A stretch of 64,000 nucleotides of DNA, taken from positions 62,001-126,000 of the IMG/VR virus record IMGVR_UViG_3300044998_001357; one strand, 5' to 3'. Positions 4,205 through 64,000 of this stretch are shown here, one piece after another. Position 1 is the stretch's first letter. Every line of letters begins with the position of its first letter. A program made the translations under genes and the position numbers. The DNA comes from a virus. Under the pieces are notes generated by a model. The model saw only the letters and a program-made list of their open reading frames with translations, was not told the DNA's origin and ran no database searches.

Positions 4205-5239
4205 ATGGACCCACAAAAACTACATTCGCTTCGACATCCCAATGTGCCTTTCACCGCTTCGCAGTGGTCTGAAGGCCAGACACTACACGTTGCGGCCGTT
4301 TACTCCAATCCGGTTCGCTGGCGTACCCGACGGCAACTCTTTCTGGATTTTCGCCGGCATATGGAGTCGTGCCCCAATGTGCGGCTTTACGTGGGCGAAA
4401 TCGCCTACGGTGAGCGACCATTTGAGGTGACGCGACCAGACCATCCCTATGATTTTCAGTTTCGCTCCACCCACGAATTATGGCATAAAGAAAATCTCAT
4501 TAATCTGGTGGTCCAACGCTTTGCACCCGACTGGCAGTACGGGGCCTATGTCGACGGCGACGTGGTGATGACCCGTTATGACTGGGCCCTGGAGTCCATC
4601 CATCTGCTTCAGCACTATGACTGGCTGCAGCTTTTTAGCCATTATTGCGACCTGGGCCCCAAACATGAGCCGTTGCGAATCACACCCAGTTTTATGCAGC
4701 GGTGGACCACGGGAGACCTAACCCGTGAGGAATCGAAACGGCTTTACCGTGGCGAACCATATGTGGTGGGGGACGGACCGGCCAAACGTCCCGGAGCGGC
4801 GGCAACGGGACTGGCCTGGGCCTTTCGTCGCAACTCTTTTGAGGCCTGTGGAGGGCTTCTGGATACCTGCGTGGTCGGTTCAGGAGACTGGCACATGGCC
4901 TTTGGACTGATTGGCCTGCCCGATGAACACCCCCAGACGCCCGAGCTCCAGCATTGCGGTAGGGCGTATGCCGAGTCGATTCGCATCTGGCAAAACCGTG
5001 CCTCGCGTGCGGTGCGCGGCAACGTCGGGGTGCTCGATTGCCTAGCGGTGCATCACTATCACGGCCGCAAGGACCAGCGTGGCTACAGCTGGCGCTGGCA
5101 GATTTTACGCGATAATGATTTTGACCCCCGTCAGGACATCTTTCGGGATTACCAGGGGTTGTGGCAACTCCATGACCACAAACCCCAGTTGCGCGATGCG
5201 ATTCGCGCGTATTTTCGTGGACGCAATGAGGACGTATGA
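4205..5239 (+). CDS. Putative glycosyltransferase (GT-A-like)
   Basis: 344 residues. After about 25 residues the chain enters a Rossmann-like start (HVAAVYSNPVRWRTRR), then carries AYVDGDVVMTRYDWA, a D-x-D type motif of nucleotide-sugar-dependent glycosyltransferases, and later a GSGDWHMAFG segment and HHYHGRK near the C-terminus, a pattern common in GT families acting on polysaccharides. No signal peptide or membrane segment is seen. The frame could be extended to a TTG at 4136, but that would run through the terminator-like hairpin, so ATG 4205 is preferred; it lacks a clear Shine-Dalgarno, so the start is uncertain. It lies far from the main glycan island and may modify a virion protein or a host surface sugar. 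The acceptor cannot be told. Confidence 0.6.
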   Translation: MDPQKLHSLRHPNVPFTASQWSEGQTLHVAAVYSNPVRWRTRRQLFLDFRRHMESCPNVRLYVGEIAYGERPFEVTRPDHPYDFQFRSTHELWHKENLINLVVQRFAPDWQYGAYVDGDVVMTRYDWALESIHLLQHYDWLQLFSHYCDLGPKHEPLRITPSFMQRWTTGDLTREESKRLYRGEPYVVGDGPAKRPGAAATGLAWAFRRNSFEACGGLLDTCVVGSGDWHMAFGLIGLPDEHPQTPELQHCGRAYAESIRIWQNRASRAVRGNVGVLDCLAVHHYHGRKDQRGYSWRWQILRDNDFDPRQDIFRDYQGLWQLHDHKPQLRDAIRAYFRGRNEDV

Positions 5240-5330
5240 TGACGCCGCAATAGAAGCTGATTCAGATTATCGCTCCGCCGGGGTGGTGTTTGCTCTTTTT
5301 CTTGGGTCAAAAGAAGCGGTTGCCGAGTAA
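5228..5330 (+). CDS. Possible 34-residue ORF
   Basis: ATG at 5228 overlaps the end of the preceding gene by 12 bases and gives a short protein (MRTYDDAAIEADSDYRS...) ending KEAVAE. It sits in an otherwise empty 120-base gap. There is no motif, and the Shine-Dalgarno (GGAC) is weak. It could equally be non-coding leader of the 5360 gene. Confidence 0.25.
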
Positions 5331-5359
5331 TACTCTTTAGCTAAATCCGGGAGTAACCG

Positions 5360-5788
5360 ATGCCGACCTATCCCTACCACTGCGAAGCCTGTGGAAAAGA
5401 GTTTGATGAATTTCGTTTCATGAACGAACCCGCTCCCGAAGTGTGTCCTTACTGCGGGGTCCGGGGCCGGCTTCGTCAAATTTTCCATGGCGGCGAGGTG
5501 GTGGGGATGGTTCGTGGCTACGAGAACGCCAAGACGTTCGGGCAGGTGGCCGAACTCAATGCCAAGCGTATGGGCAAGGAACAGCTGGACAGGATGCGGG
5601 AAGAAGCCAATCAAAAATCTCCCTTCACCGGAAAACTTCCCGATGGCGCTCGGGTTAACGAGCGCAAGTCCGAAGAGGTTCCCATCTGGCGGGACGGTTC
5701 GCTGGGCAACAAGCCTATGAGCAAGCCGCTGGATATGAAAAAAGTGAAGAATGTAGAGAAATATATTCATACAGGAGAAATGGGATGA
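5360..5788 (+). CDS. FmdB-type zinc-ribbon protein
   Basis: 142 residues. The first 40 residues match the FmdB/Zinc_ribbon_8 pattern: MPTYPYHCEACGKEFDEF followed by CPYCGVRGRLRQIF, a CxxC...CxxC zinc ribbon. In bacteria such proteins are regulator-like and poorly understood. The rest is charged and helix-rich (QLDRMREEANQ), with no recognised domain, and the C-terminal part is Lys/Met-rich. A GGGAG-type ribosome site precedes the ATG. The stop overlaps the next ATG (ATGA), starting a tightly coupled run of small genes to 7338. Zinc binding is likely from the cysteine pairs; the role in the phage is unknown. Confidence 0.75.
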   Translation: MPTYPYHCEACGKEFDEFRFMNEPAPEVCPYCGVRGRLRQIFHGGEVVGMVRGYENAKTFGQVAELNAKRMGKEQLDRMREEANQKSPFTGKLPDGARVNERKSEEVPIWRDGSLGNKPMSKPLDMKKVKNVEKYIHTGEMG

Positions 5789-6009
5789 ACCTTCTTGAGC
5801 AGGTGGTGCAAGGAAGTGATGAGGCTCCTCACAAGGCGATTATCTGGATTCGTGCCGAGGTGTACGACCTAACCAGGACTGGCGAGTGTTCGGGGAATCC
5901 TCGCTATGGAATCAACCCCTTTGCCATTGAGATTGAGGGGTCCAACAAACCCGAAGTGATTCGGCGACTGAACGAGAGGCTTGAGCAAATCAAGACCAGT
6001 CATGGATGA
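5785..6009 (+). CDS. Hypothetical small protein
   Basis: 74 residues starting at an ATGA overlap with the zinc-ribbon gene. The predicted pattern is beta (KAIIWIRAEVYDL) then an Asn/Gly turn, beta (FAIEIEG) and a C-terminal helix (EVIRRLNERLEQIK), a compact alpha/beta fold. No known family is recognised. It is coupled on both sides, overlapping the 6002 start by eight bases, which supports expression as part of the small-gene operon. Confidence 0.6.
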   Translation: MNLLEQVVQGSDEAPHKAIIWIRAEVYDLTRTGECSGNPRYGINPFAIEIEGSNKPEVIRRLNERLEQIKTSHG

Positions 6010-6304
6010 GTACATTAAGTGTTCATCTTGTAACGCAATTCTCATGCATATTCTTCGCACGCGTCCCCAGGAACCGGAAATCTGGAGACTGCGTGCAACC
6101 TGCCCTTTTTGCGGCGATAGGTCGTTTATCGTCGATATTAAGGGAGGGTTTTGTCCGGGTGGGTATGGTCGCCCGGTAGAAGGCAGTCCAAGCGATGATT
6201 ATCCCAGTACAGCCATCGACCACTGGGAAATCGAAGATTGTGTCATCACTTTCCACATAAGAAAGGCCGAGGAAAATGCAAAGCCCTGCTACCGAACCGA
6301 CTAA
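6002..6304 (+). CDS. Small zinc-finger protein
   Basis: 100 residues. The cysteine pairs CSSCN (residues about 6-10) and CPFCGD (about 35-40) form a probable four-Cys zinc site, with a further Cys in the Gly-rich segment GGFCPGGYG. The ATG at 6002 is chosen over the upstream TTG at 5981 because it sits at an eight-base overlap with the previous gene, in line with the neighbouring ATGA-type junctions. No known family name can be attached. Several small zinc-binding proteins occur along this arm of the genome, so it may be a host-takeover or regulatory protein, but this is inference. Confidence 0.62.
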   Translation: MDEYIKCSSCNAILMHILRTRPQEPEIWRLRATCPFCGDRSFIVDIKGGFCPGGYGRPVEGSPSDDYPSTAIDHWEIEDCVITFHIRKAEENAKPCYRTD

Positions 6305-46235: not shown

Positions 46236-46640
46236 ATGCAAACAAAACCTTTTCTTGCCATTCCCCTTTTGTGCCTGTTCGTTGGCTGCGAGCGACCCGC
46301 AACCAAGCCTATTCCACAACCAGCTTCTCCGCCTAGTAAAGTTCCAGAACCGTGGTTACAACCACGGCCGGTTGGTCTGACTGAGAAAGAGAAGGCAATC
46401 AAGGAGTTATTGCTCCGAAAAATAGCTCAAAAACGAGCTCGCGAGCGTGATAACGATGAGCATGAACTTCATCTAATCACCGAAAGGATGCGCGCCGCAG
46501 CCGGAAATCAGCCACGATTTCGCGCATCACGAGTCGGTGAGTACACTGAATACTTCATGATTGGACTTCGAGAAGCATTCAAAGACGCAACACCTGAAGA
46601 TGTGATGATAGCCATGCGGAATATGGGTATAACTCCCTAA
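46236..46640 (+). CDS. Lipoprotein with proline-rich linker
   Basis: 134 residues. Signal peptide MQTKPFLAIPLLCLFVGC ends in a lipobox (LFVG|C), so the mature protein would be lipidated at Cys18. A Pro-rich segment (ATKPIPQPASPPSKVPEPW) follows, then a helical, charged domain (EKEKAIKELLLRKIAQKRAR). The Pro-rich lipoprotein start recalls outer-membrane spanins, but the protein is longer and no inner-membrane partner is adjacent. Superinfection exclusion or lysis are possible roles. Its stop overlaps the tape measure stop on the other strand. Confidence 0.7.
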   Translation: MQTKPFLAIPLLCLFVGCERPATKPIPQPASPPSKVPEPWLQPRPVGLTEKEKAIKELLLRKIAQKRARERDNDEHELHLITERMRAAAGNQPRFRASRVGEYTEYFMIGLREAFKDATPEDVMIAMRNMGITP

Positions 46641-49600
46641 TCCAGATTGACCCCCGAATCAGGCATTTGCTCTCGGAAGATGCGGTTGAGCGAGGCACGC
46701 ACTTCCTTGGTAATCATGGCCTGAATTTCCGGGCTAATCCGAGACAGAACCTCTGCGCCGTTGATGTTGACATTCACCTGGTGAGTTCCCTGCAGGGTAA
46801 TGTTCTGCGGGATTCGTGAAATCGCGTCCGCCAGGGCGTTCGCGCTCCCCAAAAAGGAGGTGAACCCCTGGGAAAGCCGGCCCACGACCTCACCAAACCC
46901 ACCCGCCGCCCGCACAAACGCATTAAGTGTACGCGACAGCTGGTCGATTGCCTCACGCGGAATGGAGGGGCCAGGGATGGACTGACCACCAACCGCACCA
47001 CCCTGATTGAGTCGCTCCAGCGTGGGAGCACCCAGACCGCTGGCGGCTCGGCGGTTGAGGACAAACTCTCCTGGGGTGAGCAGGGCAGGGACAGTATCGA
47101 AAATTCCCGAACCCGGAACAGGACCGCCCGTGGCCATCCGGAGCGGTCGCTTTGCACCCACCATCACCACACCGGGTTGTGTGACGCTACGCAGCCAACG
47201 CTGATACTCGCGACTCTGGCTCGCGTTTTCTTTCCGAATCATCCCTTCGCGAGAAAGCAGGCTCATGGCGATGTTGCGCTGCCCGTCTTCGCCGGGACGA
47301 CCCAGCCCGCCAAACGAGCTTCGCTGGATGAAGTTCTCCATCTGGCTCGCCATGGCCAGCTGACCGACCTGAGCGGCCACAAAGAAGCGTTTTTGTCTCT
47401 CGTTAAACTTTCTGTCTCGAAACAGGTTGTTGCGAATGTAGTTGTTCGCTACCCAACCCTGAAGAACCATTGCCGAGGCCCCAAACGGGTTGATTGCTGC
47501 CTCCATTCGCAACTGCTCTTCGAGCTCAGCCGTGCCACCACGCGCCAGATAGACCGGGGAGGTCGACGAGTTAATCCGGCGCAGCAGTCCGGCGTTAGCC
47601 TGGGCAGAACGCCGATTGACCACGAACTCGCCCGGGGTCAGCCAGGCCGGAACCGTGTCCGTTCCCAGGGGGGAGCCAGGATGGCCGGCGACGTTGCCGC
47701 CGGTGGCCAAGCGAGCGGGAGCACCCTGAGGTGGGACATTCCCACCGGGAATTTGTTGCCGCAGACGAGCAATGGTGTCGGCCAGGGCCTTGAGTTCGGA
47801 GTTAACCTTGTTGATTTCCGTACCCAGATTTTCCAGCCGGTTATCCGTGGTATTGAAGGCGTTGAGGGCTTCCAGGAACTCCTGAGCGGCCCGTGGCCCT
47901 CCCTGCTGAAGCCGCTTTTCCAGTCCGGCGGTATCAAGACCACGGATGCCTCTGAGGCTTGCTATCGCTGTTTCAATCTCTTGATTCACACGAGCAAACT
48001 CACCGCCTGCTTTGGCGTCTCCCAACTCTAGTTTGATTGCCTTACGAATATCATCTCGGAGTACTCGATTATAACCGTCGGGTGTATGTACCTCCTCAGG
48101 AGTGATTGGTTTGGTTCGCACTTTTGCGAATCTTTCATAGGCGATTCGTTGAGCCGATTTCTGATCAACCCCCTGATTTTGGAGCCACCGAAACAGAGAT
48201 TCTTGTTGTTGCGGCAAATTCCCATTAATTTGAACATTGTCAACATCGGCAAGCGCTCGTTCTCGTGCTGTGTTGATTTGCGAGCGTTGCGTTAGCCCAC
48301 GAATCAGCGACTCGGCGCTTCCCCGCTGGTTCTGAAGGGCGACATATTGGTCGGTCGTGGTGACGCCAATACCGGCAAGCATATCACGTTGATTGGCAAG
48401 TCGTCCCAGGCGACCACTTTGCGCACTGAGAATGCCCTGACGATTTTCCGCTTCGACCAGGCGTTCTTTCAGCAGAATCGCCTCCAGACGAGCGAAAAAC
48501 TGCTCCTGTTGGGTGCCTAGATTACGGAAGAACTCGGCCGAGTTCTGTTGCTGGAATTGAATCAGCTGTATAGTGGCATCCTCGGCAGCCTTGAATCGCT
48601 GACCAATAACATCCTGGAGTTGCCGCTCTTCTTGTTGTTGACCATCATTCAGCCGGAAGGCACCGCCAAACGAATTGGAAAGTAGATTCTTAAGCAGGTC
48701 GTCGGCCCGGGGCGAGCCGGCAAAACCAGTCAACGTCACACCACCGGCCGACCGGAGCGTCTCGATGATGGAACGACGGTCGTCAGCGGAGAAGTTATCG
48801 AGATTCCCCTGGCGGGCCGCCTCATTGGCCAGAAGTAAGCCCCGGTTCATCCGCACCATCTCTTCAGGCCCGGCGGTGGCAAACCGTTCGGCAAGCCCCA
48901 GTCGGCCCTCCTTTTCCTGCTGAAGTCGGGACAGCTTCTCTTGAGCAACCGAAGTCTGATTGGTGACATCAGTCAGATTGCGCAAAGCGGTCTGCAGGTC
49001 GGCGGCACGCGATTTGAGACGGAGCACTTCTTCGGCCGCTTGAGCAAAAGCGGGGCCTCGACCACCGGTTTTGATAAACTCCTGTTGCTGGTTTCTTTCA
49101 GCATTTAGAAGTTGCGCACGGGTCTCACCCAAGCGACGACCCAAAAGGATAGGGTCAAAAGCCGCAGGCCCTGCCACACCCGCCAGTCTCGACTGCCGAG
49201 AGCGCTGACCAAACTCCAGCTGCTCTAGGCCGGCAAAATCCAGCGCCTGATTCCCACGTCCTGCGCGACTTGCCATGACTTCCAGATTCTGACGGAAGCG
49301 ACTGGTTTGTACGGAGGCTAGTTGGTCAAAGGACTCGCCAATCTGACGCAGACGACTAGTCAGTTGAGTAAGCTGCTCGGTCAGTTGATTCGCGTTGTCC
49401 TCCAGTTGACGTGCAACCTTACCGCCGATGTTTTTCAGGGGCTCGGCAAGATTCTGTAGTAGGCTACCACTCAGCGCGGTGGTATCCACCTGAACCTGAT
49501 TGATGAGGTTGGTCAGGCCCCCTCGGTCACTACTAAGTTCCTCGTTGAGCCGTCGACGTACCGAAGCCCGGGCGACACGAGCCTCCGTGTCGTCACCCAG

Positions 49601-52600
49601 ACGCTCGCGCAGCAGACGGTCCACCTGAGTGACAACATCGGCCTCGGAATTGTTTTGCGCGCCGGCTACCACGGTAGCCAAAATTCCCGGCAGAACACGC
49701 GACAGATTGTCCACCTGCGTGCCGGTGTTCAGCAACCTGGCACCCATTTCGCCACCTATGGCAGCAACCGTTTGCAGTGGCTGCAACCCCCCCCGGTCCA
49801 GTCTACCCAGCTGGTCCAGGTTTTCCGCACGAATCGAGACACGACTCGCTCCAATGGTCCCGTCAAAGACCTCAGCCAGGGCCTGACCACGCTGGCGAAG
49901 CTCCAAAAGCGAATCGGAGGCTGATTGAACAGCAAGCAAAAGACGACCAAACGAATTTATATTCTTCTCGTCTGTCTGTCGTCCCTCCAGATTACGCCGC
50001 TCGCTCAGGGTTGCCTGTTGCCCCTGGAGCACACTTTTGCGTAACTCTAAGAAAACATCATCAATGGACAGACCACGAATCGAGGCAATTAGTCGCACCA
50101 GTTCGTCGTTGAGGCCATCACCACTCGCACGCAGCTGCTGAATAATCCGACCAATATCTCCGTTGTATTGGGCTCGGCCCAGCGATTCCGCGTTGCGTTG
50201 CAGGTAGGACATCATCGAAGGCAGCTGCTGACCGAAATCCTGTCGTAGTGAGCGAGCCTGAAGTTCGCCAAAGCCCTTGGGGTCGTAGCCGCTGAAGAAG
50301 TAGGTCGAGGCAATCCGGTTTTTCTCAAACGCCTCTGCTCGGGCGGTTCGCAGCGAATCCCTGGCGGCGGTGATAAACCGACCATCGGTGGCCGGACCAA
50401 GATTGGCGAGTTGCTGAATCTTGTCGGAAAAAATAGTAAGAGCGTTGTTGATTTTGACCTGGCGAATCTCATCGGCACTCTCTCGCAGAGCGGACACCAC
50501 GCCTGCGACACCGCCAACAATTGCGCCCGCCGCACCGCCAATCACCGTTCCCACCAAAGGAATCATGCTGCCGACCGTGGCACCGATGGTTCCACCCACC
50601 AGAGCACCTTGCAATCCCCCTGAAATCGCCCGGTTGTTCGCATAGTACGAGGTGGAGCCGGCGGTTACCGCGTCTTCCACCCGGCCTGCACGATTATCAA
50701 AGAACGCCGACATCGCCGGAACGGCCATCATGGCCGCAATGGCACCCGGGCCTGAGAAAATGTTGGCAACCGGACTATTGTCCAGTCGTTGGGCCAGCCT
50801 ACTTGGTGTGGTCAGCCAGTTCCCCACCGCGCCCGCCATGCCGCCCAGGCGGTAGCCCAGACCACCTGCCAGGGGTGCATCAATACCTCGCGTATTGGCC
50901 TGTCGGACCGTTGATTCCAGACCCGCGATTTGTCCCGTGTTTAAACGTATCACACGAGCCTGACCCGACATGGCGGCTGCCACATCCTCGGTCGCCTTGC
51001 GATGAAGTTCCATGGCCGACATTTGCGGGTTGAGCTTCGCAAGCAATCGGCGTTGCGCCGAATAGAGTTCTCGCTCCGTTTTGGCGGACTCGGCGGCAAG
51101 GGCCTCTTGTTGAATCCGTGTTTGAGTCGTTTGGCTTAAATTATTTGCTCCACCCAGCCGACTCATTCGCCGATTAGCTTCCGTTTGCGCACGAGAGGCC
51201 AATCCGCCAGTAGGTACAATCTCCCCCGCTTCGTTCACCTGGGTGAGCGATTCACTACGAAGACCGATGCTCTGCAACATCCGCTTTTCAAGAATGGCTA
51301 GCTGGGTCGGCGACAGAGACCCCTTGGCCTGCTCCAGGAATGGGGTCATATCCTTAGAGCCGGAATTCCGGAATTGCTCCAGGATTCGCATCGTGACCAC
51401 ACCCGGGTCGTTTCGATAATCCTGAAGTTTTTGTTGGTTGTACCGAGCCTGTGCTTCTTGAGCCCTGACCTGTGCTTGCCTTTTCTCTTCCTGTTTTTGA
51501 CGCATTTTCGCTACGGCTTCTTCCCTCTTCTTGGAACCGGCGGCTCCAAAGGCATAGACAGCTGCGCCTGTACTTTGGTCTTGAAGCATCGCTTCTTGGC
51601 GTTGTCGAAGAGGGTCCACATAATTTCTGGCCTGGTATCGTTCCTCCTTCTTTTGCATCATTTTTTCGCCGGCTAGGTTTGCGATAATCTGCTCTTGATA
51701 TCGCACTGCCTCCGGGTCAGATTGAATCAGATTGGGATTAAATCCGGGGTCACGCCGCTTGACGGAGTTATCGAAATCTTTCTGGGTTGCCTTGACCTCC
51801 ATTTGGAATTTATAATTATCGAGTGCTTTCACGCGTTCGGCACGCAATTTTGTACCGGGAAGACCCTGAGAAACGTATGCGCCCGGCATACCGGTACTAT
51901 CTTTTACCATCTGTTTTACATACAGAGGGTCAGCATAACGGTTGCTTTCTTGACGCTGACGCGATTTTTCCATGGCCTGGGCAGCACGAGCAGCAGCCAG
52001 TACCTGCTCTTGATAATGGACAGCCCGTGGGTCTCTGGCCATCAGTGCCGGATTAACCTCGGCCGTGGAGCTAATTCCCAAGACCTTCGGTCGAGACTTG
52101 TAAGCCTCAAGCTCTTCTAGTTTCTTCTGTCGTAACGAACTACCCGGCAAGCCGTAAGCAACAAAACTACCCGGCATCCCAGATGTATCTTTCGCGTACT
52201 GTTTAAGGTACAAAGGGTCAACAAAAGGGTTGTTTTGTTGTCGCTGCAACCGAAGAAGAGCAATAGTCGAAGCAGCCGCCTCTGCCTGGGCTCGTTCAAA
52301 ATTACGACCCTGCCGTAGCTGTCTTTCAACTGCTTTGTCTAGATTTACTGCACGTGTTGCAGCAAGCATTTGTTCCTGATAACGAACCGCTACCGGGTCT
52401 TTTGCGGCAAATGCCGGATTGGGTAAACGAGCCAAAAACCATGCCTGCTCCCCGGACTCGGACGGTGTCGACGAAGAGGCGCGACCGCTTGTAGGCAGCT
52501 GATTCAACCAGGCCGGCGCGGGCATGGCAGGGTTGAGCCCCACGAGGGGGTTGTAGCCTAGTTGAGGGTAAGGCGGACGACCCTGAGGGTCGGGCGGGGG

Positions 52601-55600
52601 CGGAGGAGGGCCGGCCGCAGGCGGTGCCGGCGGTTGATTGGGGGGGACTTGCGCACCACCACCAGCCTGAGCGCGTCGAGCAGCAAGGCGCTCCTTCATG
52701 GAGCCCAATTTAACAGGAGGTGGCGCTTCCGCCGCTTTCATTTGCAAGAGTTGACGGTCTAATTCTTCACCAATACGAGAGTAGAGCGCGTCATTAGTTC
52801 CTGTTGCCGGCAGTCCAAGCTTCTTGGCAAATGATTTTAGTTCATTATAATTCGTCGGCGCAGAAACGCCCATCTTGGTAAGCAGGCGTTGAATTTCGGC
52901 GGACCTTTGTTCCTGAAGGAGCCCGGCAGCACCGCCCTCGCCCTTACCGGCGACATCCATCTCCTCGCCCCACGCCGAGGTCATGCGATACTCAAGGGTT
53001 TCAGAAATATCGCGTATTTTGGAATAAATGCCGCGACGGACATAGTTCCAGGGACGAAAATCTTTAGGGTCTCCCTGGTGTTGTATAACGGCTCGAGCAA
53101 GAGCACGGCTACCCGTTTCATACAGAATACCCGTGGGGTCCGAACCCCCAGCCACTCTCCCAATCGCCCTATCGATGATTCCCTTTCCTTCGAACTTGGC
53201 ATAGAGCGCAGCTTGTTGCGGCGTCATCCGCGAAAGGATATCGGCGGCACTTTGCTTTCCTTTGTCTGTCTGTTTGAGGGACTGAGTTGCTTCCTGAGCG
53301 GCCTGAGCCAGCCCCTTAAAGACAGGCCCCGCCTTAGTCATTTCCAAAACGATTTGAGTGGCGTTGGTGAGTGCTACTTTTAACTTGGCTGCCTCGGCCC
53401 GAACTGCATTCGCGATATCGGCGTTACCCTTGAAGTCGCCAAACTCAAAGGTTCCAGTCACCGATTCGTCTTTATTCGATACTTTGCCGCCTTTGGCATA
53501 GCCCCGAACCTTACCGGTCTGGTTCATATGATTCAGGTTCGCCAGCCCAATCCGAGAGGCCGCTTCTTTGTTGATGACAAATTCACCCGGCGTAAGCAAG
53601 GCAGGCACGGTGTCACTGGGGGACATTCCGCCCATAGCGAACTTCCGCTGCAGGAGCTTTGCCTGAAATATTGGGTCCGCCGGGTCGATGATGGCGGAGA
53701 AGGAGTTGCCTTTTGCCTTCCAGTACCGCTCGCCACCGGGCATCGCTAGTAGGGAGCGAACATCCCTGGGGGAAGCGGCAATAATATCCTCCGCCTCCTT
53801 CTCGCTCAGTAGGCCGCATTTGACCGCTGTGGCCATGCTTGACCTGAGTCGTGACCCAATGAACCGCCTATCCAGCCGGCCGTTCGCACCGAACTTTGTC
53901 GGCCAGACGTAGTAGCCTTGGAAGTCCTCGCCACGGGCTGCTAGCAGGGACATCTTCGGGGTTTCCACAAACCCCCCCGTAAGTGACGCCAGGGCTTGTC
54001 GCGCCAGCATCCGCGATGCCGAGCCGGATTGCCGAAAATCCTCATTTACAACGAATATTGAATTATTAATGCTGGCCTCGTAGGGGCTACTGGACGGGTC
54101 AACCCCACTATGTTTCTGGTAGGTCACCATACGCTTGGCGGAATACAGGTCATCCTTGTGTCTAAACCGGACATTGACCCAGCCGTAATTTTCCCTGCTG
54201 TCCTTCGACACGTTCAGGTGTACGATGTCGTCTGGACCAGCGCCCGCCAGCATGGCCGTATTTTCGAAGCCGTGTCGCTTGATGAAACTGTTTTCCAGTG
54301 CCCCTGATACCCATATATTGCGGCTCAGCGGGCCGGTCACGCCACGCCTCCTGAGCTCCTCGACGAAAGCCGTGTGATTCGAGCGGTCGACACTACCACC
54401 GCTGGCGAACCCTAACCAACGGGTGATTCCCCCCACCCATCCCTTGCCGCGAGCCAGATTACCAAAGAAGCCCAGGTCTTTGGGCTTGTAGTTTGCGTTG
54501 GTGCTCAACGCCACTCGCTCGATGATGTTCCGCTGAAAACCGCGTTGACGCAACGAATCAAGCTGGGTATTCTCTCGAAGGTTGCGGTCCATACCGGTTA
54601 GTGACTGGGCAAAAAGGTCCGCAAACCCCTCGTGGGCGGCGTACCGATAACGGCCCATCTGAGCACTAACATTGAGCCTGTCGGCACGGTCGCGTCTTCG
54701 GGTAATCTCGCCCTGAATACGGCCATAACGGTGAGCGCTCGTAAAATCGCGCTTGCTGGCCAGACCACGCCAACCATCCAGGTAGTTGTCGGCCGCATGC
54801 CCCAACTCGTGAGCAAGCGTGTACTTCAGTTGCTCAAACGAATTGATTTTTGATTTCGCGAGAGTGATAGTACCACGCAGGTCGCTCACATCTTTGGATT
54901 GCCTGTATACCCCTCTTGCCCCTGGAGACTTATCGTAGGTGTCGACGACATCGATGGTTCGCACCAGCTTGCGAAAATCAATCCCGGAATTTTGGCTTAG
55001 TTCCAGCAGGGCCTTCTTGATGGTATCGTTATTTAGGACGAAACCGTCTGAGGTGTGCTTCCGGCCTGTCATTCCCCTGAATGAAGGTCCGCCGGGAGCA
55101 CTTCCCATCAGTGTGTTGGCCTGACCACCCCGAGCAAAGCGCTGAACTCTTCCCTCGTTGAGTTCGGTCAGACGGTCGTAGCCAATCTGTCGGGCAGAGG
55201 ATTTGCGAATGATGAATTCGCCCGGAGTGAGCACCGCCGGAACAGTATCGCTATCTCCCACACCGGGAACGACGCCGCCACGGGCAAACCCACGAATGGG
55301 TTTGCCAACCTGGGCCGTTAAGCTGTTGACAAAGGCCCGAGTGGCTCCCCCCAGGCTTGTACCAATCTTGACTGCGGCAATCGCGGCCAGAACCGGCACC
55401 AGAGGCTGAGCGTATTCCAGGATTTTCGCAAACCCACCGGCAATTGTGATGAGCGAGTTAGCCAGGCCCTGAAAGCCCTTGCTATCGACCAGGCCGCGAA
55501 TGAGTTTGAGGTATTCCTCACCCAGACGTGCCGTCTTGTTGGCCAATGTTTCCTGCCGGGCCTCGGCCGCCGCGAGCAAGGAAATCTGACCGGTCATGGC

Positions 55601-56788
55601 GACATTGACCGCCTCCTGGGCAACCCGATTTTCCTTCAGGAGCGGAATCACCTTGGAGATTTGCCGGTAACCGCCCAGCTGCTCCACCACGGCGGCGAAG
55701 CGGGTATCGGTCTCGCGAAGACCCGCCAGGCCGGTGCTGAGCCGGTTGACTGCCTCGTAGGCCCCGACGAACTGGTTTTCGAGGTTTATATCACCCAGCG
55801 CCCGAGCTTCTTCTGCTGTGTAGCGAAGATTAATCCCCAGTTCGCGCACCGCCTGAACCGTGTCGGAACGCTGCAGACGAGTAAAAATGGTCCGTAAGCC
55901 CGTGGCAATCGTATCAGCCGATTCTCGAGTGGTTGCCCGTACCGAGGTGAACAGACCCATGAATTCGGCCAGGGCTTCCTGACCGGTCTTGGCATCACCG
56001 GCGACCGCAACGAAGGCACCACCCGCCTTTTGTATGGCGGTGATAAGGTCGCGCGACTCAACGGCGAAAGCACCGGCCACGGCGTTCATCGACCCGAGCA
56101 CCGAATTAAAATCCGCTGCCTGGGTCTTGAACTGACGCCATACAGCAATCAAACCTTCGGTGGTTTGCTTAATGGACTCAAAGTTGGGAGCCAGGTCGGA
56201 GCGTGCCAGCGCTTCCATGGCCACCTTGATCTCCGTCGAGGCCAGACCCGCCTGTTTCAAGACCACAGCCGATTCGGCGAGGGCCTGACTCGACACGCCC
56301 AAGGAGGTCGATAGCCGATTAATCTCGGTCCGGATTTCCGAGATACGATTGGTGGTATCACCTGAAACCTGGGCAATCTTGTTCATCTCGACATCAAAAC
56401 GAACCGCCGCAGTGACTGCCTGCTGGAAGGCACGAACGAAAGTAATCAACGAGCCTGCGGCCGCGCTAAAGGCCACAAATCGTCGAGTGGCCAGACCGGC
56501 CTGGCTGGCAAAATTTTCTAGCTGATTCACCCCGCCCTGGGTAACCCGGACTGTGGCAGCCAGGGTGGCATTCATGGTGGCGGCCTGAGACTGCACCCGA
56601 CGAAGGGCTGCTTGGGTTGCCCCCAGGCCCGAATTCAGACGTGCGATGCCCTGCCGAGAACCAGAACTGTCAATCGAGATGGTCGTATTTGCGCCGCGAA
56701 GTTGCTGATTGATACCATTGAGAACCTGCGGCAGATTGCGAGGCCCCTGAATGTTTAACTGAGCGACAATGTCGAAGACCTGAGCCAT
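46637..56788 (-). CDS. Tape measure protein, very large, with inserted enzyme-like domains
   Basis: 3,383 residues. The first 450 residues are helical with the TMP pattern (FVRAFQQAVTAAVRFDVEMN, TGQEALAEFMGLFTSVRAT). Four GG...DTVPA-x-LTPGEF-x-(I/V) segments occur (near 55200-55262, 53561-53622, 47601-47661 and 47040-47100). Between the first two lie an HELGH metallopeptidase-like site (H660 to H664, 54797-54811) and a GNAT-like stretch (EDFRQSGSASRMLARQAL near 54000). A sigma-region-2-like helical part (52975-53265), a proline-rich stretch (52570-52655), three tandem repeats (51500-52421), glycine-zipper membrane-type segments (VGGTIGATVGSMIPLVGT near 50480-50640) and long coiled regions follow. 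At about 1.5 A per residue it would allow a tail near 500 nm, less for the inserted globular parts. Confidence 0.9.
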   Translation of the reverse strand: MAQVFDIVAQLNIQGPRNLPQVLNGINQQLRGANTTISIDSSGSRQGIARLNSGLGATQAALRRVQSQAATMNATLAATVRVTQGGVNQLENFASQAGLATRRFVAFSAAAGSLITFVRAFQQAVTAAVRFDVEMNKIAQVSGDTTNRISEIRTEINRLSTSLGVSSQALAESAVVLKQAGLASTEIKVAMEALARSDLAPNFESIKQTTEGLIAVWRQFKTQAADFNSVLGSMNAVAGAFAVESRDLITAIQKAGGAFVAVAGDAKTGQEALAEFMGLFTSVRATTRESADTIATGLRTIFTRLQRSDTVQAVRELGINLRYTAEEARALGDINLENQFVGAYEAVNRLSTGLAGLRETDTRFAAVVEQLGGYRQISKVIPLLKENRVAQEAVNVAMTGQISLLAAAEARQETLANKTARLGEEYLKLIRGLVDSKGFQGLANSLITIAGGFAKILEYAQPLVPVLAAIAAVKIGTSLGGATRAFVNSLTAQVGKPIRGFARGGVVPGVGDSDTVPAVLTPGEFIIRKSSARQIGYDRLTELNEGRVQRFARGGQANTLMGSAPGGPSFRGMTGRKHTSDGFVLNNDTIKKALLELSQNSGIDFRKLVRTIDVVDTYDKSPGARGVYRQSKDVSDLRGTITLAKSKINSFEQLKYTLAHELGHAADNYLDGWRGLASKRDFTSAHRYGRIQGEITRRRDRADRLNVSAQMGRYRYAAHEGFADLFAQSLTGMDRNLRENTQLDSLRQRGFQRNIIERVALSTNANYKPKDLGFFGNLARGKGWVGGITRWLGFASGGSVDRSNHTAFVEELRRRGVTGPLSRNIWVSGALENSFIKRHGFENTAMLAGAGPDDIVHLNVSKDSRENYGWVNVRFRHKDDLYSAKRMVTYQKHSGVDPSSSPYEASINNSIFVVNEDFRQSGSASRMLARQALASLTGGFVETPKMSLLAARGEDFQGYYVWPTKFGANGRLDRRFIGSRLRSSMATAVKCGLLSEKEAEDIIAASPRDVRSLLAMPGGERYWKAKGNSFSAIIDPADPIFQAKLLQRKFAMGGMSPSDTVPALLTPGEFVINKEAASRIGLANLNHMNQTGKVRGYAKGGKVSNKDESVTGTFEFGDFKGNADIANAVRAEAAKLKVALTNATQIVLEMTKAGPVFKGLAQAAQEATQSLKQTDKGKQSAADILSRMTPQQAALYAKFEGKGIIDRAIGRVAGGSDPTGILYETGSRALARAVIQHQGDPKDFRPWNYVRRGIYSKIRDISETLEYRMTSAWGEEMDVAGKGEGGAAGLLQEQRSAEIQRLLTKMGVSAPTNYNELKSFAKKLGLPATGTNDALYSRIGEELDRQLLQMKAAEAPPPVKLGSMKERLAARRAQAGGGAQVPPNQPPAPPAAGPPPPPPDPQGRPPYPQLGYNPLVGLNPAMPAPAWLNQLPTSGRASSSTPSESGEQAWFLARLPNPAFAAKDPVAVRYQEQMLAATRAVNLDKAVERQLRQGRNFERAQAEAAASTIALLRLQRQQNNPFVDPLYLKQYAKDTSGMPGSFVAYGLPGSSLRQKKLEELEAYKSRPKVLGISSTAEVNPALMARDPRAVHYQEQVLAAARAAQAMEKSRQRQESNRYADPLYVKQMVKDSTGMPGAYVSQGLPGTKLRAERVKALDNYKFQMEVKATQKDFDNSVKRRDPGFNPNLIQSDPEAVRYQEQIIANLAGEKMMQKKEERYQARNYVDPLRQRQEAMLQDQSTGAAVYAFGAAGSKKREEAVAKMRQKQEEKRQAQVRAQEAQARYNQQKLQDYRNDPGVVTMRILEQFRNSGSKDMTPFLEQAKGSLSPTQLAILEKRMLQSIGLRSESLTQVNEAGEIVPTGGLASRAQTEANRRMSRLGGANNLSQTTQTRIQQEALAAESAKTERELYSAQRRLLAKLNPQMSAMELHRKATEDVAAAMSGQARVIRLNTGQIAGLESTVRQANTRGIDAPLAGGLGYRLGGMAGAVGNWLTTPSRLAQRLDNSPVANIFSGPGAIAAMMAVPAMSAFFDNRAGRVEDAVTAGSTSYYANNRAISGGLQGALVGGTIGATVGSMIPLVGTVIGGAAGAIVGGVAGVVSALRESADEIRQVKINNALTIFSDKIQQLANLGPATDGRFITAARDSLRTARAEAFEKNRIASTYFFSGYDPKGFGELQARSLRQDFGQQLPSMMSYLQRNAESLGRAQYNGDIGRIIQQLRASGDGLNDELVRLIASIRGLSIDDVFLELRKSVLQGQQATLSERRNLEGRQTDEKNINSFGRLLLAVQSASDSLLELRQRGQALAEVFDGTIGASRVSIRAENLDQLGRLDRGGLQPLQTVAAIGGEMGARLLNTGTQVDNLSRVLPGILATVVAGAQNNSEADVVTQVDRLLRERLGDDTEARVARASVRRRLNEELSSDRGGLTNLINQVQVDTTALSGSLLQNLAEPLKNIGGKVARQLEDNANQLTEQLTQLTSRLRQIGESFDQLASVQTSRFRQNLEVMASRAGRGNQALDFAGLEQLEFGQRSRQSRLAGVAGPAAFDPILLGRRLGETRAQLLNAERNQQQEFIKTGGRGPAFAQAAEEVLRLKSRAADLQTALRNLTDVTNQTSVAQEKLSRLQQEKEGRLGLAERFATAGPEEMVRMNRGLLLANEAARQGNLDNFSADDRRSIIETLRSAGGVTLTGFAGSPRADDLLKNLLSNSFGGAFRLNDGQQQEERQLQDVIGQRFKAAEDATIQLIQFQQQNSAEFFRNLGTQQEQFFARLEAILLKERLVEAENRQGILSAQSGRLGRLANQRDMLAGIGVTTTDQYVALQNQRGSAESLIRGLTQRSQINTARERALADVDNVQINGNLPQQQESLFRWLQNQGVDQKSAQRIAYERFAKVRTKPITPEEVHTPDGYNRVLRDDIRKAIKLELGDAKAGGEFARVNQEIETAIASLRGIRGLDTAGLEKRLQQGGPRAAQEFLEALNAFNTTDNRLENLGTEINKVNSELKALADTIARLRQQIPGGNVPPQGAPARLATGGNVAGHPGSPLGTDTVPAWLTPGEFVVNRRSAQANAGLLRRINSSTSPVYLARGGTAELEEQLRMEAAINPFGASAMVLQGWVANNYIRNNLFRDRKFNERQKRFFVAAQVGQLAMASQMENFIQRSSFGGLGRPGEDGQRNIAMSLLSREGMIRKENASQSREYQRWLRSVTQPGVVMVGAKRPLRMATGGPVPGSGIFDTVPALLTPGEFVLNRRAASGLGAPTLERLNQGGAVGGQSIPGPSIPREAIDQLSRTLNAFVRAAGGFGEVVGRLSQGFTSFLGSANALADAISRIPQNITLQGTHQVNVNINGAEVLSRISPEIQAMITKEVRASLNRIFREQMPDSGVNLD
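51500..52421 (-). repeat. Three degenerate tandem repeats inside the tape measure gene
   Basis: Each unit encodes NP-x...DP-x-AV-(R/H)-YQEQ, then a helical basic stretch, then (Y/F)-x-DPL...Q-x-x-KD-x-(S/T)-G-MPG-x-(F/Y)-V-x-x-GLPG-x-x-LR. Units begin near 52421, 52055 and 51745. The third is more diverged (AFGAAGSKKREE in place of GLPGSSLRQKK). They look like an internal triplication, so the tail length may have changed by repeat gain or loss. Confidence 0.75.
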
Positions 56789-61195: not shown

Positions 61196-61836
61196 TAGAA
61201 ACCTCGCTGAATCTCTTCGATGATGACTGCCGGAATGACTTTTTCCAGGGGGTACAGTGCTCGCGTAATCCAGTTATCCTGAGAGGTGCCGGAATACTCA
61301 GGTGGAACCTGCCAAGTACCCGAGCGCACCATGATGGCACTATCGGTTCGGGAACGTGCCGGATGGCCATAACTAATCCGGTGGTCCAAGACCAGTACCT
61401 CCTGGCCACGAAGAGTCAGCCACTCCAGCCAGTCAATTATGTAGCCACCCTCTGAGCGATAACTCCCATCAGCCGCGAGAACTTCAGAGTAGTCTCCTTT
61501 AAGTATCTCGATGCGTAAACCGCCATGAACCTCTCCACCCAGAGGTTTGACCCCCTGAGAGGTCACGCGACAACCTGCCGATAGATTCTGAATCACCCTC
61601 TGAATCACAAAGGCCGCATCCACCACACCCAGTTCTGAGCGAAGCGCTCCTTTCAGGAGCGAGTCGTACTCGGGAGACTGGGTAAGTCGTTCAGCAATCA
61701 AAATTCCAATCCGGTTACGAATAGGAGTCACCGCTTGTCCCAAAGCTCGATTAAGCTCTTTGGCAATCGCCTTCAGAATTGCGTCATAAGTCTCGGAGGG
61801 ACTCATGAGGCTTAGTTGAAAGCGAATATCAGCCAT
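61195..61836 (-). CDS. Head-tail connector or tail-completion-like protein
   Basis: 213 residues. N-terminal helices (SETYDAILKAIAKELNRAL and TPIRNRIGILIAERLTQS) then a beta part (HGGLRIEILKGDYSEVLAADG, EVLVLDHRISYG) resemble HK97 gp10-like neck proteins. It overlaps its neighbours. The assignment depends on gene order and the fold pattern. Confidence 0.5.
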   Translation of the reverse strand: MADIRFQLSLMSPSETYDAILKAIAKELNRALGQAVTPIRNRIGILIAERLTQSPEYDSLLKGALRSELGVVDAAFVIQRVIQNLSAGCRVTSQGVKPLGGEVHGGLRIEILKGDYSEVLAADGSYRSEGGYIIDWLEWLTLRGQEVLVLDHRISYGHPARSRTDSAIMVRSGTWQVPPEYSGTSQDNWITRALYPLEKVIPAVIIEEIQRGF

Positions 61837-62371
61837 TGAACTGTTCCCATACCGCGTAGAAGTAGCGGTTTTGAATGATATTGCTTCGGTCGCCGGGTTG
61901 GACCAGTAACCGAAATTTGTTGCGAATCAAACCCTGAATCGGTAGTTGCAAAACTAAATGGTCACACTTCAAAATTTTGGGTAGGTCTTTCAAGAACCCC
62001 TTGGTCTCCACCAAAGAGTAAGGAACAAACATATTCTGTTTTGCTATTGGCAATGGCGTAACAAAACGTCTTAAATCCCAGTTGCATCCAAGCGTTATTT
62101 GCTCGGACACCTCTTCGGGCTTTCGGCCCTCACCACCGCACAAGGGGCACTTCCCGCCGGTAAAAGGCGAGGGGCCCCCACTGCGGTAACGGCCCATCGA
62201 ACGACCCGAGAGCGGGTCGACAATACAATTCGAACACGCAACGAAACGAGGAGGGTAAACCAGAGAACAGGTTTTTCCCAGTCCGCCCTCCTCCCCATTG
62301 GCAAGAAGGTCATCCAGGGCATCCTGGATAACCTGTTTGGTCTGCGCATCGAGGGCAAAGATTTTAGCCAT
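61829..62371 (-). CDS. Virion-region protein with zinc-ribbon knuckles
   Basis: 180 residues. A helix at the N-terminus (KQVIQDALDDLLANGEEGG) is followed by cysteine pairs FVACSNCIVD and GGKCPLCGGEG, a DnaJ-like zinc ribbon, and a beta-rich C-terminal half (LVLQLPIQGLIRNKFRLLVQPGD). Position in the head-tail connector cluster suggests a neck component. The zinc ribbon is an unusual addition for such genes. Overlaps the previous gene (TAATG). Confidence 0.55.
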   Translation of the reverse strand: MAKIFALDAQTKQVIQDALDDLLANGEEGGLGKTCSLVYPPRFVACSNCIVDPLSGRSMGRYRSGGPSPFTGGKCPLCGGEGRKPEEVSEQITLGCNWDLRRFVTPLPIAKQNMFVPYSLVETKGFLKDLPKILKCDHLVLQLPIQGLIRNKFRLLVQPGDRSNIIQNRYFYAVWEQFNG

Positions 62372-62571: not shown

Positions 62572-63063
62572 TTAAAAGTAACGATTGTAATCGTTTTGGT
62601 GTGCGTAAAGCCGAAACGGGGTCATCACCGCAGCACCTGCAATGCCGCCCGACTGAGTGGTCAGATATTCCGCCTTGGCGTCCGTATAGACGGCGCACCA
62701 CCCCTTCTCCAGGAGCTTTAGCTTACCCTGGAGATTACCTCGCAGGTCGATGGCCGAAGTACCATCCTTGACCGCGATAGCCTGCTTGGCCGCAAGGATG
62801 GCCGCACCCCGGTCAGCGATACAGGCCGCTTTCAAACAGACGAGGTTGATAAACGATTCGTCTCTCGTCCCCATGGTTGGGTCCGGCGTCAGGGTCTCAT
62901 TAACAACATCCGCGCGATAATCAAGTGGGAAGGGAAGCTCCTGAGCCACCTGAAACGCCGCCACCAGGATAAGACGCAACAGCGAATCATCGGTGTAGGT
63001 TTGAGCTTCCTGGTCGTTGACCATCACCCGAACCACCAGAAGCATTTCTTCGTCCCAGGCCAT
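62572..63063 (-). CDS. Head-tail adaptor-like protein
   Basis: 163 residues from ATG 63063 (GAGG five bases upstream; GTG 63069 also possible). Helical: DSLLRLILVAAFQVAQELPF, ESFINLVCLKAACIADRGAA, a long linker and GWCAVYTDAKAEYLT. Small all-helical proteins of this size following capsid genes are usually the gp6/gp15-like adaptor that joins portal and tail. This is inferred from size, fold and location. Confidence 0.5.
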   Translation of the reverse strand: MAWDEEMLLVVRVMVNDQEAQTYTDDSLLRLILVAAFQVAQELPFPLDYRADVVNETLTPDPTMGTRDESFINLVCLKAACIADRGAAILAAKQAIAVKDGTSAIDLRGNLQGKLKLLEKGWCAVYTDAKAEYLTTQSGGIAGAAVMTPFRLYAHQNDYNRYF

Positions 63064-63070
63064 GACCACC

Positions 63071-63385
63071 TCACTTCAAATTGGGATATACCTTAAACTT
63101 TTGAATTTCGGAGTGGTTAATCATCCCACTGGGAAACCCCACCACGGCCTGAACCTTCCAGTTGCCGGGAAGATTGATATCCCCTGGTTCAACAATGTAT
63201 TCCATCTTGCCATCCGTACCATCGGTGACCAGCACCGCCTGTTTGTCCAGCACGCTACCGTCAGGTCGAGAGAACCACATACGCAGATTATTGGCATTCT
63301 GCAAATTCATAATGGAACCATCCTCGTTTTTCAGAGTGACCCGAAACGAGGTGCCCACATCACCAACATGGATTTCGCCCGTCAT
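63071..63385 (-). CDS. BppU/Ig-like baseplate or head-surface domain protein
   Basis: 104 residues, an Ig-like beta domain: FRVTLKNEDGSIMNLQNANN, LRMWFSRPDGSVLDKQAVLV, GKMEYIVEPGDINLPGNWKV. The order of strands and the L-x-N-A-x-x-L-x-M-W/F-x-x-P-D-G pattern match the N-terminal domain of BppU-like phage proteins. Probably a surface or baseplate component; its neighbours are connector genes. Good ribosome site (AGGAG) before the ATG. Confidence 0.65.
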   Translation of the reverse strand: MTGEIHVGDVGTSFRVTLKNEDGSIMNLQNANNLRMWFSRPDGSVLDKQAVLVTDGTDGKMEYIVEPGDINLPGNWKVQAVVGFPSGMINHSEIQKFKVYPNLK

Positions 63386-63387
63386 GA

Positions 63388-64000
63388 TTAAAACTCCTTT
63401 TGTCTCTTAGGAGTCCACAGAAACGGATAGACTAGCTGGATGGCCGAATCAAACTCGTACTGCGAAGCCAGCATCAACTCGACTTCGAGAATGGTGCCTG
63501 GTGCCGCACGTACCACCCAGAACAGTTCGGCCGCTGTCAGGACGCTATTGAGGTCTTGCCACCCCAAGACCATCTCAGCACCCAGTCGGCTACGAGTACC
63601 CCAAACCGGCTGACAAAGAGTACCGGTTCGTTGGTAAACATTCCATTCGGGAACAAGGTCGTGAGCCAAAACCGCTCGCAGGGACCACGGAACCGACGAG
63701 ATGAGCCCCACCCGTCCACGGGCCGGCCAGGTCAAGGTGAGCAGAGCAGCCAGTGTGGAGCGTTGGTTCCAGATTGTTTGAGCCGACCGATTAGCTAGCG
63801 ACCGAACCGACCATTGCAAACCATCCTCCGTCCCAGCCGGCGTCCGGGCTGACCACAAAAGCTCCTCTTCTTGGCCAATAGGCACATAGGTATTCCACAT
63901 ATAAGAATAAGTGCTGGAGAGCGGCGCATAAACAGACCACACCGTCTCGCTACTGGATGACACCGCCTGGACTGAGCCAAGCTCTGAAACATAGAGCGAA
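63388..64000 (-). CDS. Tryptophan-repeat protein, 5'-partial
   Basis: The frame is open to the window edge; the GTG at 63963 is probably internal. From the codon at 63939 to the one at 63519, eleven Trp residues are spaced by exactly 14 residues, in units such as LLWSARTPAGTEDG, LQWSVRSLANRSAQ and PVWGTRSRLGAEMV. The pattern is h-x-W-x-x-(R/Y), where h is hydrophobic. Two further units keep the period with Leu in place of Trp. The C-terminus is basic (TPKRQKEF). No family known to me matches. It is most likely a repetitive virion surface protein, as its gene leads the connector cluster. Confidence 0.75.
   Translation of the reverse strand, partial: SLYVSELGSVQAVSSSSETVWSVYAPLSSTYSYMWNTYVPIGQEEELLWSARTPAGTEDGLQWSVRSLANRSAQTIWNQRSTLAALLTLTWPARGRVGLISSVPWSLRAVLAHDLVPEWNVYQRTGTLCQPVWGTRSRLGAEMVLGWQDLNSVLTAAELFWVVRAAPGTILEVELMLASQYEFDSAIQLVYPFLWTPKRQKEF
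63470..63950 (-). repeat. Coding tandem repeat, 42-base (14-codon) period
   Basis: Eleven near-consecutive units, each with Trp at its third position and Arg or Tyr three residues later. The DNA copies have diverged, so the period is kept at the protein level. It starts at the left edge of the open frame and may extend beyond the window. Confidence 0.8.

Follow-up and report, generated by a model that had tools for sequence, protein, structure and literature searches.

Why should a viral protein carry a tryptophan at every fourteenth residue, and what might a virus build with it? The question arises at the end of the 64,000-nucleotide stretch of DNA analysed here (the window; G000:C1:62001-126000 of a 148,783-bp virus record), and reading the record past the window end gave us the complete gene. 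This gene, which we refer to as the array gene, occupies 63388..64000 and the first 68 nt beyond the window end on the minus strand; its ATG overlaps the end of an upstream 475-aa gene and its stop lies at window position 63388. The encoded protein of 226 residues consists of an N-terminal part of about 38 residues, eleven 14-residue Trp units (63493..63954, minus strand; the Trp is position 6 of each), two more units of that length in which Leu stands for Trp (63409..63492, minus strand) and a short C-terminal tail. The pattern reported by a sequence-only reading of the window, eleven Trp residues at exact 14-residue steps with Leu at the same position in the next two units, is confirmed on the complete protein; a twelfth Trp is out of register. 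The same reading had pointed to an Arg or Tyr three residues after the Trp, and one of the two is present in 10 of the 11 Trp units.

A regularity of this kind might reflect chance, composition or an antisense artefact, and some matches to the pattern elsewhere are indeed spurious, among them an antisense match in PeteCarol and a simple repeat in PhiR12_3. For the window protein the probability of such an origin is negligible, and we regard it as already refuted. In 20,000 shuffles of the protein, evaluated for all periods from 5 to 40, the best same-spacing chain had six members and was seen once, and a chain of eleven was never reached. The gene runs in the orientation of its operon, and its units have diverged in their DNA: mean identity between units is 22% at the amino acid level and 35% at the DNA level, which indicates that the periodicity is old and kept by selection on the protein, and is not a recent tandem repeat of DNA. 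In addition, the protein has an independent PHROG match (phrog_6079, E 3e-5, profile positions 50-170 of 605), and tblastn yields matches to gp15 of KVP40-like Vibrio phages.

Pfam, NCBIfam and PDB contain no family that spans the repeat, so that the earlier statement that it belongs to no named family holds for these collections, and a literature search found no paper naming it. Nor is the repeat confined to the window protein: it is already contained in phrog_6079 and in KVP40-like gp15. The members of phrog_6079 (e.g. Stenotrophomonas phage S1 gp21) are siphophage tail proteins whose N-terminal half is built of the same 14-residue Trp units as the window protein, but they have a further C-terminal tail-tip part of about 300 residues, whereas the window protein ends after the array. 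In the KVP40-like phages, the array is a C-terminal extension of gp15, fused to a tail sheath stabiliser domain, while the window protein is free-standing; in the more distant Vibrio phage EniLVp02, the ladder of the gp15 array consists of Tyr. A search of viral contigs with the window protein as single query found nothing; a five-unit DNA pattern search led to dozens of uncultivated phages, in which arrays run to as many as 29 units. The profile of 774 units reads [DST]-L-D-L-R-W-[DN]-[VI]-[RL]-x-x-[VIA]-x-x; positions -4, -2, 0, +2 and +6 are hydrophobic and those between them polar, and successive units are 14 residues apart in 817 cases, 17 residues in 46. The window protein matches the array HMM with E 6.6e-32, its own sequence being among the seeds. 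Elsewhere, whole arrays have Tyr or Phe in place of Trp and keep the 14-residue spacing; the constant feature is therefore an aromatic residue in an amphipathic strand and not Trp as such, and the idea that Trp itself is essential has to be given up.

The main new result is the genetic linkage of these arrays with a second family, phrog_13135 (160-200 aa), here labelled P169, which accompanies the arrays in a neighbour analysis and has full-length matches in 33 loci. Among viral pattern matches, P169 is present in 39 of 61 loci with true arrays and in 1 of 172 non-array loci (Fisher p 2e-27), and an array is recognized by profile in 53 of 80 loci fetched with P169 alone as against 0 of 33 capsid-control contigs (p 3e-12), counts to be read in the knowledge that loci are redundant, that some contigs are common to both sets (e.g. 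L125/L399, L043/L402, L181/L405) and that many loci are incomplete. P169 was not detected in 22 of the 61 array loci, many of which are incomplete stretches; visual inspection of P169 loci reveals several more Tyr-type arrays below the profile threshold. The two genes are always on the same strand and often 5-77 nt apart. They recur in two orders, one running from capsid through P169, other genes, array and connector to tail tube, the other from array through P169 and a gene of about 100 aa to the portal; in the KVP40-like phages and EniLVp02, the gp15 array, with W or Y, is followed directly by the P169 gene. Both genes occur in the window phage, KVP40, 6E35.1a and EniLVp02, and among cultured phages both are found in the same Vibrio group. 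In KVP40 the P169 homologue is KVP40.0353. The P169 of the window phage is a 197-aa gene after the major capsid gene, outside the window, which matches phrog_13135 with E 1.7e-33 over positions 1-182 of 182.

AlphaFold2 models P169 as a beta sandwich (pLDDT 89.8, pTM 0.87). Foldseek matches of this model to solved structures are weak and mostly to chaperone-usher pilins (E ~0.02, TM ~0.35), which suggests no more than an Ig-like fold; among viral proteins, an unnamed siphophage protein matches best. We also observed that the N-terminal 65 residues of Stenotrophomonas phage S1 gp19, a 1201-aa tail protein (L161:2147-5752) encoded two genes before the Trp-array gp21, bear a weak likeness to the beginning of P169 (E ~2e-5, calculated over a small set).

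The array gene of the window phage lies in a virion structural operon, in line with the earlier suggestion of a repeating virion fibre, and its neighbours all share its direction. It is preceded, in order, by the major capsid gene (phrog_2522, distantly like phage G), the P169 gene, a 166-aa gene and two fibre- or decoration-like genes of 589 and 475 aa. The array is absent from contigs related to the window phage by their major capsid protein, which places it in a variable region flanked by the genes of capsid and neck. Directly downstream lies a BppU_N-like gene of 104 aa (63071..63385, minus strand; PF10651 E 1.3e-4), whose 22.1 bits fall just under the curated cut-off of 23.1; a relative occupies the same place after the array in L125, L176, L226 and L239. 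Next comes a 165-aa gene to which no function is assigned (62572..63069, minus strand), conserved in the capsid-related contigs. From its position, one might guess at a head-tail connector; it has no family match and no connector match, and its comparison with head-tail adaptors was negative.

Several features of the surroundings deserve separate mention. The 475-aa and 589-aa genes, adjacent beyond the window (L002:3065-4492 and 4426-6195, minus strand), are likely paralogues with a common C-terminal part, and the latter has a head-decoration match (phrog_20658, E 1.7e-13). A conserved 180-aa gene (window 61829-62371, minus strand), for which no family was found, encodes two CxxC pairs (CSNC, CPLC) with a zinc-binding look. 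Further on, a tape-measure-like protein of 3383 aa (window 46637-56788, minus strand) has an internal HExxH zinc-protease-like motif (TLAHELGHAADNY).

Fusions and neighbours of the arrays in other phages give some indication of where such proteins sit on the virion. The array is fused to the head-tail adaptor phrog_442 in L433, L436, L439, L442 and L449, and the gp15 to which it is fused in KVP40-like phages is the tail completion protein, which seals the tail at its neck end. Copies in phrog_6079 are an exception and lie among tail-tip genes, not at the neck. The gene of about 100 aa that follows P169 in many loci is PF23148, Gp77, the fibre-tail adaptor of podophage GP4. It is present in 21 of the 80 P169 loci, and in L446 a Tyr-type array is fused to it. 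In the stretches of the window phage that were read, Gp77 has no match, and the BppU_N-like gene stands in its place; a comparison of these two as relatives was negative. Array proteins often carry a surface-active payload domain, such as a sialate acetylesterase (L448), a beta helix (L252) or a metallophosphoesterase (L061). According to a 2025 study (PMC12028318), which also includes virion proteomics of 6E351A, recombination in these Vibrio phages has two main hotspots, one of which maps to 125-130 kb of 6E351A; the array gp15 (QZI87474.1) and P169 (QZI87473.1) of this phage lie there, at 128.3-130.2 kb.

The sequence-only reading had also predicted a regular fold, for instance a beta-solenoid with a Trp ladder. 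From an alignment of 46 arrays, AlphaFold2, read at the level of secondary structure, predicts about one strand of some 11 residues per unit and 3-residue turns, with low confidence (pLDDT 62, pTM 0.50), and Foldseek with this model found nothing convincing. Since the turns between strands are short, we take neighbouring strands to be antiparallel, which would give a meander whose strands carry the Trp near their middle. The model lends weak support to the idea of a regular beta fold and an aromatic ladder, and would make it a meander more probably than a solenoid; at such confidence, the strand arrangement is a prediction only.

From these observations, we hypothesize that the array protein forms the rope, or stalk, of an appendage on the virion, most likely situated at the neck, which works together with P169 and a small adaptor; we consider this reading fairly probable. 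Each 14-residue unit would be one amphipathic beta strand with a central aromatic side chain, a run of units would place an aromatic ladder on one face, and the number of units would set the length of the rope. The rope would work with the linked Ig-like P169 and be fixed to the virion by the adaptor, BppU_N-like here and Gp77-like in many relatives. Because the ropes of relatives carry adhesin or enzyme domains, the appendage probably presents or spaces parts that bind the host surface. The periodicity, its spread, the linkage with P169, the fusions and the operon position are observed; for the window copy, we infer a place on the virion, contact with P169 and a role in host binding. More broadly, the array strings found across many unrelated phages suggest one undescribed kind of rope-based virus fibre.

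How rope and P169 might fit together is a matter on which we are more tentative. It is conceivable, if on the unlikely side, that each unit or pair of units is a strand docked on P169, so that the array acts as a ruler stringing a fixed number of P169 beads into a flexible chain. The whole would then be a modular appendage that phages with different types of tail exchange, and that is fixed to the neck or to the tail tip by interchangeable adaptors: Gp77, a BppU_N-like protein, or direct fusion to gp15 or to a head-tail connector. Somewhat doubtful, in our estimate, is an array that folds on its own into a beta rod (a meander, barrel or oligomeric prism) and serves as a plain spacer, P169 being a separate decoration protein. 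The antiparallel strand per unit and 3-residue turns of the AlphaFold2 model would suit such a rod, as would a spacing that is nearly always 14 with discrete 17s, the 22 of 61 arrays with no detectable P169 and the presence of arrays in phrog_6079 tail proteins. Yet the linkage of P169 to arrays holds for both gene orders and across phages that differ widely, which a shared operon alone explains poorly, and amphipathic strands with one hydrophobic face require a partner or closure.

Aromatic ladders also occur in carbohydrate-binding modules, where they bind glycans, and glycan-active domains accompany some arrays, so that the Trp ladder might be a carbohydrate-binding surface and the array a lectin-like adhesin. 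We consider this improbable: the aromatic position varies among W, Y, F and L and its same-face flanking positions are also hydrophobic, as befits a buried core residue, and separate adhesin or enzyme domains already fill the glycan role.

The nearest known parallel to the proposed rope is fibre I of the Ralstonia podophage GP4 (8JOU), in which an elongated rope protein reportedly links five gp80 dimers and a fibre-tail adaptor holds the fibre in place. Common to both is a late-gene cluster for a repetitive rope-like protein, a small bead protein and a Gp77 adaptor, and the PDB relative of the PF23148 Gp77 of array relatives is 8jou_D of GP4. Chain 8jou_a, present ten times at 140 aa and thus taken to be gp80, is a homologue of Burkholderia phage BcepIL02 gp55. 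P169 shows no detectable homology to this bead (hhalign E 0.45, with a two-sequence profile of 8jou_a homologues), and 8JOU is absent from the Foldseek top 50 for the P169 model. Between the bead homologue and Gp77 of BcepIL02 lies gp56 (L478:7114-7971), with repeats of about 20 residues (GAGxADLVLNVSGNGTRRTF) and no match to a solved chain; it is a candidate for the rope of a GP4-type fibre. This rope-like gene of GP4 relatives has a period of about 20 residues and lacks the aromatic ladder, as opposed to 14 in the window array, and the window phage, in the stretches read, has a BppU_N-like gene instead of Gp77. A profile search of BcepMigl found neither array nor P169. Given a P169 with no detectable bead homology and a candidate rope with a different period, we do not file the window system as a GP4-type member; in the rope reading it would work like GP4 fibre I, an analogy drawn here from sequence. 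Beside the Gp77 gene of Rhodococcus phage Shagrat, gp4 and gp5 (L479:1448-4468) contain diverged strand-like tandem repeats (ETAAASDPTPVxTV type) and are possibly other ropes.

An odd periodicity has in this way become a recognizable module of two or three genes (array, P169 and small adaptor), so that genes now listed as hypothetical can be annotated in many uncultivated phages. The module also suggests what certain stretches of phage adhesins may be that are repetitive and predicted poorly, as in gp34 of Alishewanella phage LSH1. A 2026 paper on that phage describes gp34-gp36 as an 'extra structural module' whose three genes always occur together in LSH1-related IMG/VR genomes (PMC13243795). 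One encodes a protein headed by an adhesin, with a C-terminal part that is predicted poorly and may be repetitive; another encodes a dimeric fibril protein that HHpred matches to 8JOU, and the third a protein with an Ig fold. We liken this module to the array system by its description, in which gp34 and gp35 might stand for array and P169; in Slicko01, which has the gp34 head domain, profiles found no array and no P169. Whether phages share a bead-on-rope fibre in which the number of repeats determines the length becomes a testable question, and one that can be put to the KVP40-like phages, since these are cultured.

The pattern searches also returned matches that we set aside. Those in Klebsiella Webervirus and PhiR12_3 are artefacts (the former reads a coiled-coil fibre in antisense, the latter is a simple repeat of 7 residues), and many TGG-pattern matches are LW/RW low complexity or antisense ORFs. 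A second fibre repeat, 'SANWNSTYTTVS', found in L055, L088, L096 and L135, resembles the array in having Trp every 14 residues; it differs, as seen in L055, L088 and L096, in the small residues around the W, a Tyr at +4 and the lack of any visible P169 linkage, and is apparently unrelated. Pattern matches in genome contigs are nearly all low complexity or antisense, except for two bacterial assemblies, a Pseudomonadales MAG (L335) and a Ca. Lithacetigena MAG (L286), in each of which an array is found with a P169 gene, probably in a prophage.
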